This document shows positions 9,511 through 15,346 of a DNA stretch of 64,000 nucleotides, piece by piece. Source of the stretch: Nocardia sp. NBC_00403 (GTDB lineage Bacteria > Actinomycetota > Actinomycetes > Mycobacteriales > Mycobacteriaceae); contig NZ_CP107939.1 in assembly GCF_036046055.1 (NCBI RefSeq), forward strand, positions 4,960,001 to 5,024,000. Reading direction: 5' to 3'. Each line of letters starts with the position of its first letter. The stretch's first letter is position 1. The translations under genes were made by a program, and so were the position numbers. The notes beneath the pieces were generated by a model. That model searched no databases and was not told the DNA's origin. It worked only from the letters and a program-made list of their open reading frames with translations.

Positions 9511-10224
9511 GTGACAGCGCGATCAGAACTGGCGGGTGTGCTGTGGGACATGGACGGCACGCTGCTGGATTCGGAGAAGCTGTGGGACATCGGTGTCCGT
9601 GAGCTGGCGCGCCGGCACGGCCACGAGATGACCCAGGACCTGCGGCATGCATTGATCGGCGCTTCGGGCCCCGATGCGCTGCGCATCATGTTCGACGGCC
9701 TCGGCATCGAGCACACCGCCGCCGCTGTGCGCGCCGCGGGCGAGTTCCTGGAGCGGCGGGTGACCGAGTTGATGACGGGCCCGATTCCGTGGCGTCCCGG
9801 CGCGAAAGACGCACTGGCTCTGGTGCGGACGGCGGGACTTGCCACGGCACTGGTCACCAACACCAAACGGTCGCTCACCGAATTCGGACTCGACACCCTC
9901 GGCCGTGACTTCTTCGACGAGTCGGTCTGCGGCGACGAGGTGGCCAACGGCAAGCCCGAACCCGACGTCTATCTGCGCGCCGCGGGGCTGCTCGGTGTCG
10001 ACCCGCGCAACTGCGTCGCCATCGAGGATTCGCCGACCGGCGCACGTGCGGCCCAGGCCGCGGGCTGCGCGGTGATCGTGATCCCGTGCGAGATTCCGGT
10101 GCCGCAGCTGCCGGGCCGCGTCTTCCGTGATTCACTGGTCGGGTTGACTCTCGGCGATCTGCACGACGCATTGCGCGTGCGCGACGCGATGGCGGCTTCG
10201 GCAGAATCCGGCCATCGGCGTTGA
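9511..10224 (+). CDS. HAD-superfamily hydrolase (beta-phosphoglucomutase-like)
   Basis: HAD phosphatase of 237 residues. Motif I is DMDGT with nucleophile Asp13 and acid Asp15; motif II is the Thr in LVTNT; motif III/IV appear as KPEPDVYL and AIEDSPTGARAA. The helical cap sits after motif I, as in beta-phosphoglucomutase and phosphoglycolate phosphatase-type enzymes. It has a GTG start with GAAGGAG upstream and lies 28 bp after the kinase gene, so the two may be cotranscribed. Substrate unknown. Confidence 0.9.
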   Translation: MTARSELAGVLWDMDGTLLDSEKLWDIGVRELARRHGHEMTQDLRHALIGASGPDALRIMFDGLGIEHTAAAVRAAGEFLERRVTELMTGPIPWRPGAKDALALVRTAGLATALVTNTKRSLTEFGLDTLGRDFFDESVCGDEVANGKPEPDVYLRAAGLLGVDPRNCVAIEDSPTGARAAQAAGCAVIVIPCEIPVPQLPGRVFRDSLVGLTLGDLHDALRVRDAMAASAESGHRR

Positions 10225-10416
10225 TCTTGTTCTGCGCCACAACAATTCGGTCGACGCCATTGTGACCGACAGGTATACACCGCCGATGCCGGGCGAGTCT
10301 CAGTGAGAGTTACTGTGCCGCAACACAAATGAGTGCTGTTCGGGGGTGTGACGGTAGTCACGGGCAATCTTTCCGAATCCCGGGCGTGTCTGCGAATGCT
10401 GCACCAAAATTACGCC

Positions 10417-11280
10417 ATGACAGCGACGGGAGTGCTGGATGAAATCGTCGATACGGCACGGTATTCGCTTGCGGATCCTGGGGGATCGTCCTGGCGGGAT
10501 ACGGTGGCGCGGGCGCGCGCGGAATTGGCCGAGGTCGGCTGCACTGTGCTGCGGGAATTCATCCGGCCGGAGCTGATCGAGACGCTGCGCGCGCAGGGGG
10601 AGGCGATAGCGCCCGAGGCGTATTACGAGGTCGAGCGGGTGAATGCGTACAACATTCCGCTGGATACCGAACTGCCGGAAGACCATCCGGGACGGATCGT
10701 GCTAACCCGCGGAAATGCGTTCGTGCCGCGCGATCGGATCCCGGTCGACGCACTGATCCACCGCCTCTACATCAGCGCGGTGTTCCAGCGGTTCGTCGCG
10801 GATTGTTTCGGGCTGGCCGAACTGCACGAATTCGCCGATCCGCTGGCCGGACTCTGTCTGAATGTCGTCGCGCCCGGAATGGCGCATCCGTGGCATTTCG
10901 ACACCAACGAATTCACCGTCAGCATGCTGACGCAGCCCGCCGAGACGGGCGGTGTCTTCGAGTATTGCCCCAATATCCGCTCGACCGAGACCGAGAACCT
11001 CGACAACGTGCGCGCCGTGCTCACCGGCGCGGGGGCACGGCTGATCCGGCGACTGGACTTGCGGCCCGGCGACCTGCAGCTGTTCAAGGGCCGCTTCTCG
11101 CTGCACCGGGTGTCGCCGGTCGAGGGCGGCACGCAACGACATTCGGCGATCTTCGCCTACACGAATCGTCCCGGCGTCATCGGCACCGTGGAGCGCACTC
11201 GCCAGCTGTTCGGGCGGGTGCTGCCCGACCACCTGGCCGCCGCGGCCGACGCCGTCCGAGGCGACCGATTGCTCGACTGA
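10417..11280 (+). CDS. 2-Oxoglutarate/Fe(II)-dependent oxygenase (putative hydroxylase)
   Basis: Double-stranded beta-helix oxygenase of about 287 residues from the ATG at 10417. The frame extends to a GTG at 10333, and an ATG at 10396 is also possible; none has a strong ribosome site. The iron ligands appear as WHFDTNEF (His160, Asp162) and a distal His230, with Arg241 placed to bind 2-oxoglutarate. The stretch around ETGGVFEYCPNIR is shared, as far as I recall, with the BesD/HalD group acting on free amino acids. The retained Asp argues for hydroxylation rather than halogenation. First gene of a three-gene operon with a methyltransferase and a carnitine-acyltransferase homologue. Confidence 0.8.
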   Translation: MTATGVLDEIVDTARYSLADPGGSSWRDTVARARAELAEVGCTVLREFIRPELIETLRAQGEAIAPEAYYEVERVNAYNIPLDTELPEDHPGRIVLTRGNAFVPRDRIPVDALIHRLYISAVFQRFVADCFGLAELHEFADPLAGLCLNVVAPGMAHPWHFDTNEFTVSMLTQPAETGGVFEYCPNIRSTETENLDNVRAVLTGAGARLIRRLDLRPGDLQLFKGRFSLHRVSPVEGGTQRHSAIFAYTNRPGVIGTVERTRQLFGRVLPDHLAAAADAVRGDRLLD

Positions 11281-11333
11281 GTACAACGACGCTGCCTGGG
11301 CAGTACATAGCTCGACCCGAGAGGAACGAACTA

Positions 11334-12167
11334 GTGTCAGTGCCGTTACACACGACCGGAAAAGCTTCCTTCGACGATATCTACACCCGTCCCGATCCCC
11401 GCGACTACTACGCCCGGATGGCCGAACTCGACTATCGGATTCCGGAACTGGCGAAACCGTTCTTCCAGCAACAGATTCGGGAGTATTGCGCCTCGGCGCG
11501 CGTGAGCACCCCGACGGTGCTCGACATCGGCTGTTCCTACGGCGTCAATGCGGCACTGCTGCGCCTGGACACCACCATCGGCGAACTCGCCGGGCACTAC
11601 CGGCGGGCCGAAGGCGACCAGACCGCGCTCATCGCCCGCGATCGAGCCCGGCTGGCCGCGCAGGACCGGCTGCCCGATGTTCGCTTCATCGGCATGGATG
11701 TCGCTCACCCCGCCCTGTCCTACGCCAACGCCGCCGGATTCCTGCACGACACCGTGCACGCCGACCTGGAGGCCACGGACCCGACCGAGCAGCAGCGAGC
11801 CATCCTGGCGACTGCGGATATCGTCGTGTCCACCGGCTGTGTCGGTTACGTGACCGAAAAAACATTGTCCCGGGTTGCGCTCGCGCACCCACACCGGCGG
11901 CCGTGGATGGCACACTTCGTCTTGCGCATGTTCAGCTTCGAGCCGATGGCCGCGGAGCTTGCCGCGCTCGGCTACCGCACCGAGCAGGCGCCCGGCATCT
12001 TCGAGCAACGCAGGTTCGCCTCCGACGCCGAACGCACGCAGGTGCTGAATACCCTGTCCGACAATGGCATCGACACCACCGATCGCGAAACCGAAGGCTG
12101 GCTCTACGCCAACCTGTACCTCTCCCGCCCGCTGACCGAACACGCCGACCCCGAGGAACTGCATTGA
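11334..12167 (+). CDS. Class I SAM-dependent methyltransferase
   Basis: Protein of 277 residues with SAM-binding motif I VLDIGCSYGVNAALL at 62-76. An acidic residue follows in the next strand region (FIGMDVAHPAL), and ADIVVSTGCVGYVTEK occupies the post-motif position. GTG start at 11334 with GAGAGGAAC upstream. The stop overlaps the start of the acyltransferase gene by four bases (TTGA), indicating translational coupling. The acceptor is not identifiable by motif; from the operon partners, an amino acid or hydroxy amino acid amine is a reasonable guess. Confidence 0.8.
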   Translation: MSVPLHTTGKASFDDIYTRPDPRDYYARMAELDYRIPELAKPFFQQQIREYCASARVSTPTVLDIGCSYGVNAALLRLDTTIGELAGHYRRAEGDQTALIARDRARLAAQDRLPDVRFIGMDVAHPALSYANAAGFLHDTVHADLEATDPTEQQRAILATADIVVSTGCVGYVTEKTLSRVALAHPHRRPWMAHFVLRMFSFEPMAAELAALGYRTEQAPGIFEQRRFASDAERTQVLNTLSDNGIDTTDRETEGWLYANLYLSRPLTEHADPEELH

Positions 12168-13978
12168 GTCAACGCACCTTCGCCGCCGACGAACACCTGC
12201 CCCGGGTGCCGCTGCCGACGCTGGAGGACAGCTGCACCCGATTCCTGGAATGGTGCGCACCGCTGCTGACCGCCGATGAAATCACCACCACCGAGGCGGC
12301 CGTCGCCGACCTGCTGGCCGCGGACGGCCCCGGCCGGACTCTGCACGCCGCACTGGCGGAATACGACGCGACCCCTGGCGTCGGGAGCTGGCTGGATCTG
12401 TTCTGGCCGTCGCGCTACCTCGGCAGGCGCGATCGAATCGCCTTGAACGCCAACTTCTTCTTCCTCTTCCGCGACGACACCCCGTTGGCCACCTCGACCG
12501 CTCCCGACCAGGTGGAGCGCGCGGCGGGGATCGTCGCGGCCGCCGTCGACTACAAGCTGGCGCTGGACGCCGAGGACGTCCCGCCCGCCACCCAGCGTGG
12601 GCAGTTGCTGACGATGTGGCAGCACAAATACCTGTTCTCCGAGACGCGGATTCCCGGCGCGGAACAGGATTCCGTGCGGGTGCCCTACAGCGCGGAATGG
12701 CCGGGGCCGTCGCAGGCCGGGCACATCGTCGTGTTCTTCCGCGGGAGCATGTTCCGGATGGAAGTGATCGGGCCCGACGGCGCGCCCTACTCGCTCGACG
12801 ACCTCGCCGACGGTCTGCGCGCGGTATTGAAGGCCGGTGCGCGCTCGGCCCGCACCGACACCGCGGTCGGGCATCTGACCACCAAAGCGCGTGCCGAATG
12901 GGCGGCGAGCAGACAAGAGTTGCGCGCCGAACCGTCCAACATCGCGGCGCTGGACACCATCGAGACCGCATTGTTCTGCCTGTGTCTGGAGGACTTCACC
13001 CCACGCGACGAATTGCAGGCCTGCGATCAGCTGCTGCATGGCGACAGCGCCAACAGGTGGTTCGACAAGGCCGTGTCGTTCATTGTCTTCGGCGACGGGC
13101 AGGCCGGCATCAATATCGAGCACTGCGGGTTGGACGGCACCACCATCCTGTCGTTCGTGGACACGCTGCTGGAAAAGCCCACGCAAGAGCATGCCGACCG
13201 GTCCGGCGCACAGCCGCAGGGGCTGCCCCCGGTCGAACCGATCGAGTTCGTGCTCGATGCTGCCCAGCGCAGCGATATCGCGGCGGCGGGAGCGGCCTTC
13301 GCTCGGTATGCGGCCGAGAACGCCACCACCACAGTCACTTTCGAGAACTTCGGCACCGCGCGGGCCAAGCAGCTCGGCATCTCGCCGGATGCCTTCGCGC
13401 AGTTGAGCTATCAGCTGGCCCACCGTCGCAGCAAAGGTGTCACCGGCGCCACCTACGAATCCATCGCGACGCGCCAATACCGCAACGGCCGCACCGAGGC
13501 GATGCGGGTAGTGACCCCACAGCTGGTGGCCTTCGTCGACGCCATGCAGGATCCCGCGGCCGCTCCCGCCGACCGGGTGACCGCGGCACGGGCCGCGGCG
13601 ACCGCACACGTCGAGCGGGCCAAACAGTGCCAGGCAGGGGACGCGCCCGAACAGCACCTCTGGGAGCTGCAGTGGATTCAACGCCGCCGCGGAGCCGAGC
13701 TCGGCGTCGAAGCGCCGATCCCGCTCTACGACAGCCCGGGCTGGACGATCATGCGCGACGACTATCTGAGCACCAGCTCGGCGCCGTCGGTCAACATCCG
13801 CTACTTCGGATTCGGGTCCACCAGTCCCAAGTGCATCGGCGTCGCATACGTGCTGCTGCCGGACCGGTGGAATCTGTACCTCGCGACGCCGCGCGCGGTC
13901 GCGAACGAGATGCATGTGTTCGCCGACCATCTGCGCACGGCTGTCGCTGATCTCGAGGCGCTGCTCTCGGGCGCGTGA
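12164..13978 (+). CDS. Choline/carnitine O-acyltransferase family protein
   Basis: Protein of 604 residues resembling carnitine/choline acyltransferases, which move acyl groups between CoA and the hydroxyl of carnitine or choline. The N-terminus has the family start (LPRVPLPTLEDS). The catalytic His is at residue 320 in GINIEHCGLDGTTI, matching the HxxxDG active-site motif. The C-terminal SSAPSVNIRYFGFGSTSP fits the substrate-binding strand region. TTG start at 12164 overlaps the methyltransferase stop. Such proteins are rare in bacteria. Acceptor inferred to be a product of the two upstream enzymes rather than host carnitine. Confidence 0.87.
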   Translation: MSQRTFAADEHLPRVPLPTLEDSCTRFLEWCAPLLTADEITTTEAAVADLLAADGPGRTLHAALAEYDATPGVGSWLDLFWPSRYLGRRDRIALNANFFFLFRDDTPLATSTAPDQVERAAGIVAAAVDYKLALDAEDVPPATQRGQLLTMWQHKYLFSETRIPGAEQDSVRVPYSAEWPGPSQAGHIVVFFRGSMFRMEVIGPDGAPYSLDDLADGLRAVLKAGARSARTDTAVGHLTTKARAEWAASRQELRAEPSNIAALDTIETALFCLCLEDFTPRDELQACDQLLHGDSANRWFDKAVSFIVFGDGQAGINIEHCGLDGTTILSFVDTLLEKPTQEHADRSGAQPQGLPPVEPIEFVLDAAQRSDIAAAGAAFARYAAENATTTVTFENFGTARAKQLGISPDAFAQLSYQLAHRRSKGVTGATYESIATRQYRNGRTEAMRVVTPQLVAFVDAMQDPAAAPADRVTAARAAATAHVERAKQCQAGDAPEQHLWELQWIQRRRGAELGVEAPIPLYDSPGWTIMRDDYLSTSSAPSVNIRYFGFGSTSPKCIGVAYVLLPDRWNLYLATPRAVANEMHVFADHLRTAVADLEALLSGA

Positions 13979-13996: not shown

Positions 13997-14022
13997 CCGG
14001 CCGTCGTGGTTGCGGCGGCCGG
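13997..14022 (+). terminator. Terminator-like hairpin after the acyltransferase operon
   Basis: A 10-bp stem with one G:T pair (13997-14006 with 14013-14022) and a 6-nt loop begins 18 nt after the acyltransferase stop. It closes the three-gene operon before hisE. Confidence 0.5.
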
Positions 14023-14494: not shown

Positions 14495-15346
14495 ATGCTG
14501 CGCGTCGCAGTCCCCAATAAAGGCGCCCTGTCCGAATCCGCCACCTCGATCCTGTCCGAGGCCGGCTACCGCAAGCGCACCGATTCCCGCGACCTGACCG
14601 TCCTCGATCCGGCCAACCAGGTGGAGTTCTTCTTCCTGCGACCCAAGGACATCGCCATCTACGTCGGGTCGGGCGAGCTCGACCTCGGCATCACCGGTCG
14701 CGACCTCGCGCTGGATTCCGGTGCCACCGTCCAGGAACGGCTCTCGCTCGGCTTCGGCCGCTCCACCTTCCGCTATGCCGCCCCGGCCGGTCGCGAATGG
14801 AAGGTCGAGGACCTCTACGACAAGCGCATCGCCACCTCCTACCCGAACCTGGTACTCAGTGATCTGCGTGCACGCGGCATCGAGGCCGAGGTGATCCGCC
14901 TCGACGGCGCGGTCGAGATCTCCATCCAGCTCGGCGTCGCCGACGCCATCGCCGATGTGGTCGGCTCTGGGCGCACGCTGCGTCAGCACAATCTGGTCGC
15001 GTTCGGTGAGACGCTGTGCGATTCGGAGGGCGTGCTGATCGAACGGACCGGCTCCGATCAGAAGGACCGCGCCCGCAACCAGCTCATCGCGCGCGTTCAG
15101 GGCGTGGTGTTCGCACAGCAGTACCTGATGCTGGATTACGACTGCCCGAAGGAGCTCCTGGACGCCGCGGTACAGATCACCCCGGGTCTGGAGTCGCCGA
15201 CGGTCTCGCCGCTGACCGATCCCGGCTGGGTCGCTGTCCGTGCCCTGGTGCCGCGCAAACAAGGCAACGAGGTCATGGATCAGCTTGCCGAGTTGGGTGC
15301 CAAGGCGATTCTCGCCACCGATATCCGCTCCTGCCGCGCCTTCTGA
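14495..15346 (+). CDS. hisG: ATP phosphoribosyltransferase
   Basis: HisG, 283 residues, condenses ATP with PRPP in the first, feedback-controlled step of histidine synthesis. [14 protein letters not shown] opens the periplasmic-binding-like catalytic fold, and the PRPP loop appears as [13 protein letters not shown]. The length shows the long form with a C-terminal PII-like regulatory domain (from about 212), which binds histidine. The ribosome site GAAAGGA precedes the ATG. Confidence 0.96.

Follow-up and report, generated by a model that had tools for sequence, protein, structure and literature searches.

A conserved oxygenase-methyltransferase-acyltransferase operon of Nocardia as a candidate pathway to an acylated small molecule

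The closest described systems to the operon analyzed here are the acyltransferases of Pfam family PF00755, among them CrAT, CrOT, CPT2 and choline O-acetyltransferase (ChAT); the halogenases BesD, HalB and HalD with a lysine hydroxylase homologue (PDB 6nie, 7u6i, 7u6h and 7jsd); class I small-molecule methyltransferases such as TylM1 and BamL; and eukaryotic carnitine biosynthesis (TMLD and BBOX), whose chemistry, with the reaction of CrAT added, is in principle of the same three kinds. In CrAT, Arg518 clamps the carboxylate of carnitine, alongside Tyr452 and Thr465, while Phe566 packs on the trimethylammonium group and Met564 bears on acyl length (Tyr452 and Thr465 in mouse numbering). The ChAT residues at the carboxylate end are Val, Asn and Asn. 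Here, we describe three adjacent genes of Nocardia sp. NBC_00403 encoding an Fe(II)/2-oxoglutarate (2OG) oxygenase (OXY), a class I S-adenosylmethionine (SAM)-dependent methyltransferase (MT) and a carnitine/choline acyltransferase homologue (CAT). They lie in a 64-kb stretch of DNA (G000:C1:4960001-5024000), hereafter the window, of an 8.7-Mb genome whose assignment to Nocardia agrees with the names of the nearest proteins. OXY-MT-CAT is a conserved unit. Our preferred reading, held tentatively and with somewhat less than even confidence, is that the operon would be a self-contained tailoring pathway to an acylated, hydroxylated and methylated small molecule, with an acceptor other than carnitine.

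A conserved three-gene unit

All three genes are on the forward strand, and positions given below are those of the window. OXY (10417..11280, stop codon included; ATG start, 287 residues) is followed by MT (11334..12167; GTG start, 277 residues, motif VLDIGCSYG) and by CAT (12164..13978; TTG start, 604 residues), the last two sharing the 4 nt of a TTGA stop/start overlap at 12164..12167. The coordinates, frames and residues of the three genes and the overlap, as given in an initial annotation of this DNA, were verified when re-read from the sequence.

Recurrence of the cluster in other genomes had been set beforehand as a check, and the cluster did recur. MT was found in 147 of the 148 Nocardia genomes drawn (Nocardia being, in all counts from the genome sample, its genus g1); in G347, the sole genome without MT, the OXY and CAT searches were likewise empty. 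Gene order was compared at 30 loci out of the 147 matching genomes, the window's own included, and OXY, MT and CAT had the same order and strand in 29 of these. The 4-nt overlap between MT and CAT was present in 47/53 Nocardia loci (window included), the exceptions being L006, L007, L013, L115, L116 and L117, and it was not observed at the Actinomadura locus L016.

The association extends beyond the genus. In class-wide draws of 394 genomes each for OXY and CAT, which share the 40 handles concerned, 40 genomes had a close OXY (E at most 3.3e-106) and 42 had a CAT. All 40 genomes with a close OXY carry CAT, the two extra CATs (in G139 and G688) being of a distant kind, and in five further genomes the OXY matches were all distant, none better than E 2.5e-79. 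As 30 of the 40 genomes belong to one family (f87), they do not represent 40 independent cases. This family is probably Frankiaceae, since NifH was found in 25 of its 35 genomes. CAT is present in 30/35 f87 genomes, and the 5/35 that lack CAT yielded no OXY either; the OXY search was empty in 7/7 genomes, G784 (63% complete) among them, with the same query that matched 45 genomes in the class draw. Named carriers beyond Nocardia are Actinomadura nitritigenes and a Saccharomonospora sp. and, for OXY, Skermania and Alloactinosynnema. The initial annotation had called a bacterial carnitine acyltransferase unusual, which agrees with the scarcity of PF00755 members in the phylum draw (4/296 genomes, the source genome included) and in the control genomes (0/14). 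No further gene recurs beside the module across genera, beyond Nocardia synteny, a few genes common to related f87 loci and broad families, and we therefore define the module as three genes. A chance neighbourhood of the three was considered and rejected in view of their co-occurrence and conserved order.

Of the 25 distinct loci with both MT and CAT (26 were listed, L067 and L135 being one genome), four have the two genes in one open reading frame: those in three f87 genomes and a second operon copy of the source genome. This second copy (L086/L087, about G000:C1:481960-485486) encodes the fusion in an 888-residue frame. Its OXY and CAT are 56-57% identical to those of the window copy and its MT about 45%, with a GC content of 0.614 compared to 0.669. 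In G455 the module is split, OXY and CAT being on contig C176 (L097) and MT and CAT on contig C184 (L120), as if an operon had been duplicated and each copy had lost a different gene. The fused frames, the shared 4 nt and the divided module of G455 all speak for MT and CAT acting in one pathway. Pairwise distances of OXY, MT and CAT correlate with one another, with r of 0.87-0.91 (28-32 loci) and, without the main Nocardia copies and with the second copy included, of 0.91-0.94 (18-22 loci).

Active sites of the three enzymes

OXY matches Pfam PF23169 (Halogenase D) with 51.3 bits (cut-off 26). Unlike the oxygenases of eukaryotic carnitine biosynthesis, it stays below the cut-off of PF02668/TauD (13.5 bits against 27), and neither an aldolase nor a dehydrogenase is a recurrent neighbour of the module. 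A PDB sequence search with OXY alone returned nothing useful, and two narrower profiles gave weak matches to HalB and HalD. The PDB comparison therefore rests on a broad 20-member profile that includes distant relatives, with which we obtained HalB (E 2.6e-10), HalD (2e-8), lysine halogenases (2.5e-6 to 2.3e-5), the lysine hydroxylase 7jsd (2.3e-5) and BesD (0.002). The iron-binding triad already pointed out in the initial annotation (His160, Asp162 and His230) is intact and invariant in 51 aligned relatives. Together with the profile match and the 2OG-binding Arg241, this HxD...H motif places OXY in the hydroxylase branch of the HalD/BesD structural family. According to PMC13244439, Fe/2OG halogenases have Gly or Ala in place of the iron-ligand carboxylate, and in the profile alignment Asp162 of OXY faces Gly in both HalB and HalD. 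For this reason, and because Asp162 is invariant among the relatives, OXY is, judging from its sequence, of the hydroxylating, non-halogenating type, as had been proposed.

Many of the 120 OXY relatives listed are labelled "HalD/BesD family halogenase" or "arpA protein" by NCBI and UniRef. The halogenase name is misleading for these proteins, as the halogenase-defining Gly is replaced by Asp.

CAT matches PF00755 over its whole length (524.7 bits, cut-off 22.3; profile positions 1-573 of 574), and its best PDB sequence scores are with CPT2 (E 3.8e-65) and human CrAT (5.8e-59), a ChAT chain matching at 7.2e-57. The alignment with human CrAT spans both proteins from end to end. His320, which had been annotated as catalytic, lies opposite the active-site His of CrAT (His343). 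Residues were counted in full-length matches only, of which 198 were collapsed to 166 distinct sequences by core identity; this set supersedes an earlier tally of 222 rows, of which 23 were gapped at position 497 and some were duplicates. Among the 166, 111 come from the best 120 of 1723 listed relatives, nearly all named Nocardia, and 33 from non-Nocardia loci. His320, Asp324, Tyr431, Thr444, Thr537 and Phe550 are invariant (166/166), and Ser536 and Ser538 are each present in 165. CAT retains the active-site His, the Ser-Thr-Ser motif, the Phe of the trimethylammonium site and the GRT motif of CrAT, CrOT and CPT2, and its Tyr431 and Thr444 face Tyr452 and Thr465 of CrAT.

CAT differs from CrAT and CPT2 in its oxygenase and methyltransferase partners and in the following residues. 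The Arg that binds the carnitine carboxylate in CrAT, CrOT and CPT is replaced by Gln497 in 164 of the 166 sequences (132/133 Nocardia rows and 32/33 non-Nocardia rows). An Arg is present at this position in only two of them, the CAT of the second operon copy (L087) and the distant stand-alone L025 (G139). Because the clamp is almost always Gln, carnitine seems an unlikely acceptor of CAT. At the position bearing on acyl length, where CrAT has Met564 and CPT2 has Gly, 164/166 sequences have Phe548 (the other two having Leu, in G455 contig C176, and Ala), and a short acyl pocket is predicted from this. CAT shares with ChAT the Pfam family and a neutral residue at the clamp position (Asn in ChAT); in contrast to ChAT it keeps the CrAT-like Thr444 and is bacterial, and we know of no ChAT with operon partners like those of CAT. 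The acceptor-site residues Thr444, Ala446 and Gln497 correspond to neither the CrAT set nor the ChAT set. We read CAT as a working acyltransferase with a predicted short-chain acyl pocket, whose acceptor would carry a neutral group at the place of the carnitine carboxylate.

Distant stand-alone carnitine acyltransferases, 28-30% identical to CAT, were seen in G139 (L025/L112) and G688. The one in G139 carries Arg at the clamp position, with no OXY or MT next to it; the one neighbour scanned had no Pfam match.

MT has the Rossmann fold and DxGxxxG motif of class I SAM-dependent enzymes: Asp64, Gly66 and Gly70 are invariant in 51 sequences, and the predicted model and the fold matches agree. The PDB sequence search with MT gave chance-level matches only, and the best 50 rows of the fold comparison are 10-18% identical, with TylM1, BamL and further small-molecule enzymes of class I among them. 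NCBIfam holds no name for OXY, MT or CAT. We consider methylation of a nitrogen most likely, ahead of methylation of an oxygen.

Stand-alone relatives of MT with 37-41% identity were found at L113 and L114 (Nocardia G311 and G372), close to an M23 peptidase gene, at L121, near a GntR regulator, and at L122, near genes for an AMP-binding enzyme and a GST-like protein. In the Nocardia genome G321 (G321:C13:18715-21311), the MT match ends at residue 217 and the CAT match is in two pieces in different frames, reflecting either decay or a sequencing error.

Candidate pathway and alternative explanations

The proposed tailoring pathway has as its observed basis the identities of the genes, their conservation and linkage, the fusions, the active-site residues and the operator-like site described below. 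In this proposal, OXY would use Fe(II), 2OG and O2 to hydroxylate a small amino-acid-like amine at an unactivated carbon. MT would methylate the molecule, most likely on nitrogen, giving a choline- or betaine-like head, and CAT would esterify the hydroxyl with a short acyl chain, most likely acetyl, taken from CoA. Instead of carnitine, CAT would act on a final acceptor that is neutral at the place of the carnitine carboxylate; the order of the steps is left free. The substrate class, the methylation of nitrogen, the acyl length, the step order, the regulator and the role of the product are what we infer. The best-fitting product is a hydroxylated and methylated amine esterified with a short acyl chain. 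The outline of the acylated betaine first suggested for this operon is kept, whereas the carnitine-type acceptor with a free carboxylate is weakened by Gln497.

Several observations weigh against this proposal, and the first of them concern the substrate of OXY. Comparison with a BesD-type site had been recommended; in a sequence alignment, OXY belongs to the family of BesD and lacks two of the acids that bind lysine. BesD residues are usually numbered Glu120, Asp140, His134 and Arg74, three below the numbers of the source cited next. In PMC13244439, the ammonium groups of lysine are held by three acidic residues (E123, D143 and D239), with R77, H137 and W241 as further substrate contacts. The spacing of E123, H137 and D143 is that of Glu129, His143 and Asp149 of HalB in the profile alignment, and HalB Glu129 and Asp149 face Leu143 and Thr163 of OXY. 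Two of the three acids named there are thus absent, while no position in the alignment could be assigned to the third, an Asp close to the C-terminus. Because of these replacements at the two placeable positions, which set OXY apart from lysine hydroxylases and halogenases of the BesD type, lysine is an unlikely substrate. His157 of OXY faces the carboxylate-contacting His of BesD and is invariant within the operon type and variable in distant relatives. Arg93 falls opposite the carboxylate-binding Arg in a gapped, uncertain stretch of the alignment, and some relatives have Ala, Lys or Thr in its place. The idea of an amino acid as substrate therefore rests on family resemblance.

Some further support for an amino-acid-like substrate comes from the gene neighbourhoods of distant OXY relatives that have no CAT. 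In three of five, genes of amino-acid or guanidino metabolism lie alongside: arginine deiminase/DDAH and M20 peptidase genes at L106, an amino-acid-type ABC transporter at L107, and creatinase, nitrilase-type and aminotransferase genes at L104. Family membership and these neighbours suggest that the OXY substrate may be amino-acid-like. The neighbours are uninformative at L108 (another 2OG oxygenase and DUF6817) and L099 (an M28 peptidase and an EF-Tu-like protein).

The module is also not always complete. OXY and CAT occur without an adjacent MT at four loci, L020 (Saccharomonospora), L094, L097 and L098, and MT and CAT without OXY at two, G455 contig C184 and L036 of G341, the latter being the one deviating locus in the Nocardia gene-order count and its genome having no OXY found elsewhere. 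In G667 and G700 only a distant MT relative (40-41% identity) was found, elsewhere in the genome. Since some loci lack MT or OXY, these cases argue that one step may have another source or that a third step is not always needed. The incomplete loci speak against the strict three-step chain originally envisaged. The correlated distances would also be produced by shared descent alone, and in the fold comparison the MT model ties with N-, C- and O-methyltransferases alike.

The last point leads to the alternative that survives best, although we consider it unlikely: MT could be a carboxyl (O-) methyltransferase, in which case OXY would hydroxylate an amino acid, MT would methyl-esterify its carboxylate and CAT would acylate the hydroxyl. 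The clamp Arg of CAT would therefore be dispensable, so this model explains its near-complete replacement by Gln497 directly. PF03492, the family of SABATH carboxyl methyltransferases, gives faint matches in 9/51 MT members, and salicylic acid carboxyl methyltransferase (1m6e) matches at E 2. The best of the PF03492 matches has E 0.012, however, and none of these reaches a cut-off. Plant-type carboxyl methyltransferases were absent from the best 50 rows of the fold comparison and may rank lower, and the MT model fits many other class I methyltransferases equally well. Moreover, Gln497 persists at the four loci that have no adjacent MT.

The tailoring pathway we prefer must also be set against a literal carnitine-like one, in which the product would be an O-acyl betaine with a free carboxylate and CAT would recognize its acceptor as CrAT recognizes carnitine. 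That CAT is a full-length member of the family, that Tyr431 and Thr444 are invariant and that the second copy of the source genome carries the clamp Arg all favor this model. The Gln found opposite CrAT Arg518 in nearly every CAT does not, and makes it quite improbable. Still less can be said for CAT as a general acyl shuttle that buffers acyl-CoA, like mitochondrial CrAT or CPT2, and has two unrelated genes as chance neighbours. CPT2 and CrAT are indeed the top PDB scores, and pairs of MT and CAT or of OXY and CAT do occur without the third gene. This explanation is nevertheless very unlikely given the coincidence of close OXY and CAT in 40 genomes, the failure to find OXY in the f87 genomes without CAT, the MT-CAT fusions, and the Phe and Gln at the acyl-length and clamp positions. 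Finally, a halogenase role of OXY, with a chlorinated amine as acceptor, is suggested by the database names and the PF23169 match and is ruled out for practical purposes by Asp162, where HalB and HalD have Gly, and by the lack of a hydroxyl for CAT that a halogen would entail.

A bolder version of the preferred pathway, which we regard as doubtful, is that Nocardia and probable Frankia near-universally make an undescribed O-acetylated hydroxy-amine, a counterpart of acetylcholine and acetylcarnitine formed by hydroxylation, N-methylation and O-acetylation. Its synthesis in Nocardia would be under cAMP-CRP-type control, and the second copy, having regained or kept the clamp Arg, would make a sister compound with a free carboxylate.

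Each of the three enzymes belongs to a known family. What may be new, as the near-fixed Arg-to-Gln change suggests, is a turn of the carnitine/choline acyltransferases to another acceptor in bacteria. Among the papers listed by a text search, judged by titles and the starts of abstracts and with most subscription journals outside it, none appeared to concern this operon, its near-universality in the genus, the replacement of Arg by Gln or the operator. A term search of a Nocardia pangenome paper (PMC12153302) gave no match for carnitine, halogenase, betaine or acyltransferase. An acyltransferase family that is scarce in the sampled bacteria is yet near-universal in one genus and tied to a hydroxylase, and the module supplies three enzymes for direct identification of the acceptor. 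If the product were indeed an acetylcholine-like ester, it would represent a new class of metabolite from soil organisms, opportunistic pathogens and, probably, plant symbionts.

Upstream region and genome setting

An alignment of the regions upstream of 12 Nocardia loci, the window included, brought out a GTGA-N6-TCAC palindrome, located at 10348..10361 on the forward strand, 69 nt upstream of the OXY start. It is a candidate CRP-type operator. In a comparison of 44 loci (L015 left out), it lies 69-70 nt before OXY in all 21 Nocardia loci beyond the window (L001-L014, L017-L019 and L115-L118), several of which are from closely related species, and at this distance in 0/23 other loci, the second copy among them; L089 has one at 197 nt. 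The arms are fixed and the N6 spacers vary, with 12 different ones counting the window. The 64-kb window has one match to GTGA-N6-TCAC against 1.14 expected by chance; because rarity alone is uninformative, the case for an operator rests on the position and the conservation of the arms. The site has the sequence of a CRP/GlxR-like operator, CRP operators being TGTGA-N6-TCACA in PMC5449483 (Table 1), and the Nocardia operon is probably under a CRP-type regulator. Upstream of the palindrome, the block GAGAGTTACTGTGCCGCAAC (10305..10324, forward strand), possibly a promoter element, was recognizable in 10 of the 12 aligned loci, L013 and L014 deviating.

The operon had been described as closed by a hairpin. 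An 11-bp hairpin is present 3' of the CAT stop (13997..14022, forward strand); it lacks a T run and is not among the terminators listed by the scan of the window. Upon folding of an 85-nt stretch containing it, the z-score was -1.83, and 6 of 200 shuffles folded equally well. Among 12 Nocardia loci folded (window included) and judged by eye, a stem of about 10 bp or longer directly follows CAT in eight, with differing sequences, and no clear stem was seen in the other four. Rfam and tRNA scans of the window gave no matches.

The genes flanking the operon look ordinary and lie outside the module. A HAD-family gene (9511-10224) lies on the 5' side, and hisG (14495-15346) on the 3' side, with hisE, identified by sequence and position, between CAT and hisG. 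The adjacency to hisE and hisG in Nocardia is probably meaningless for the module, since the module has other neighbours in other genera.

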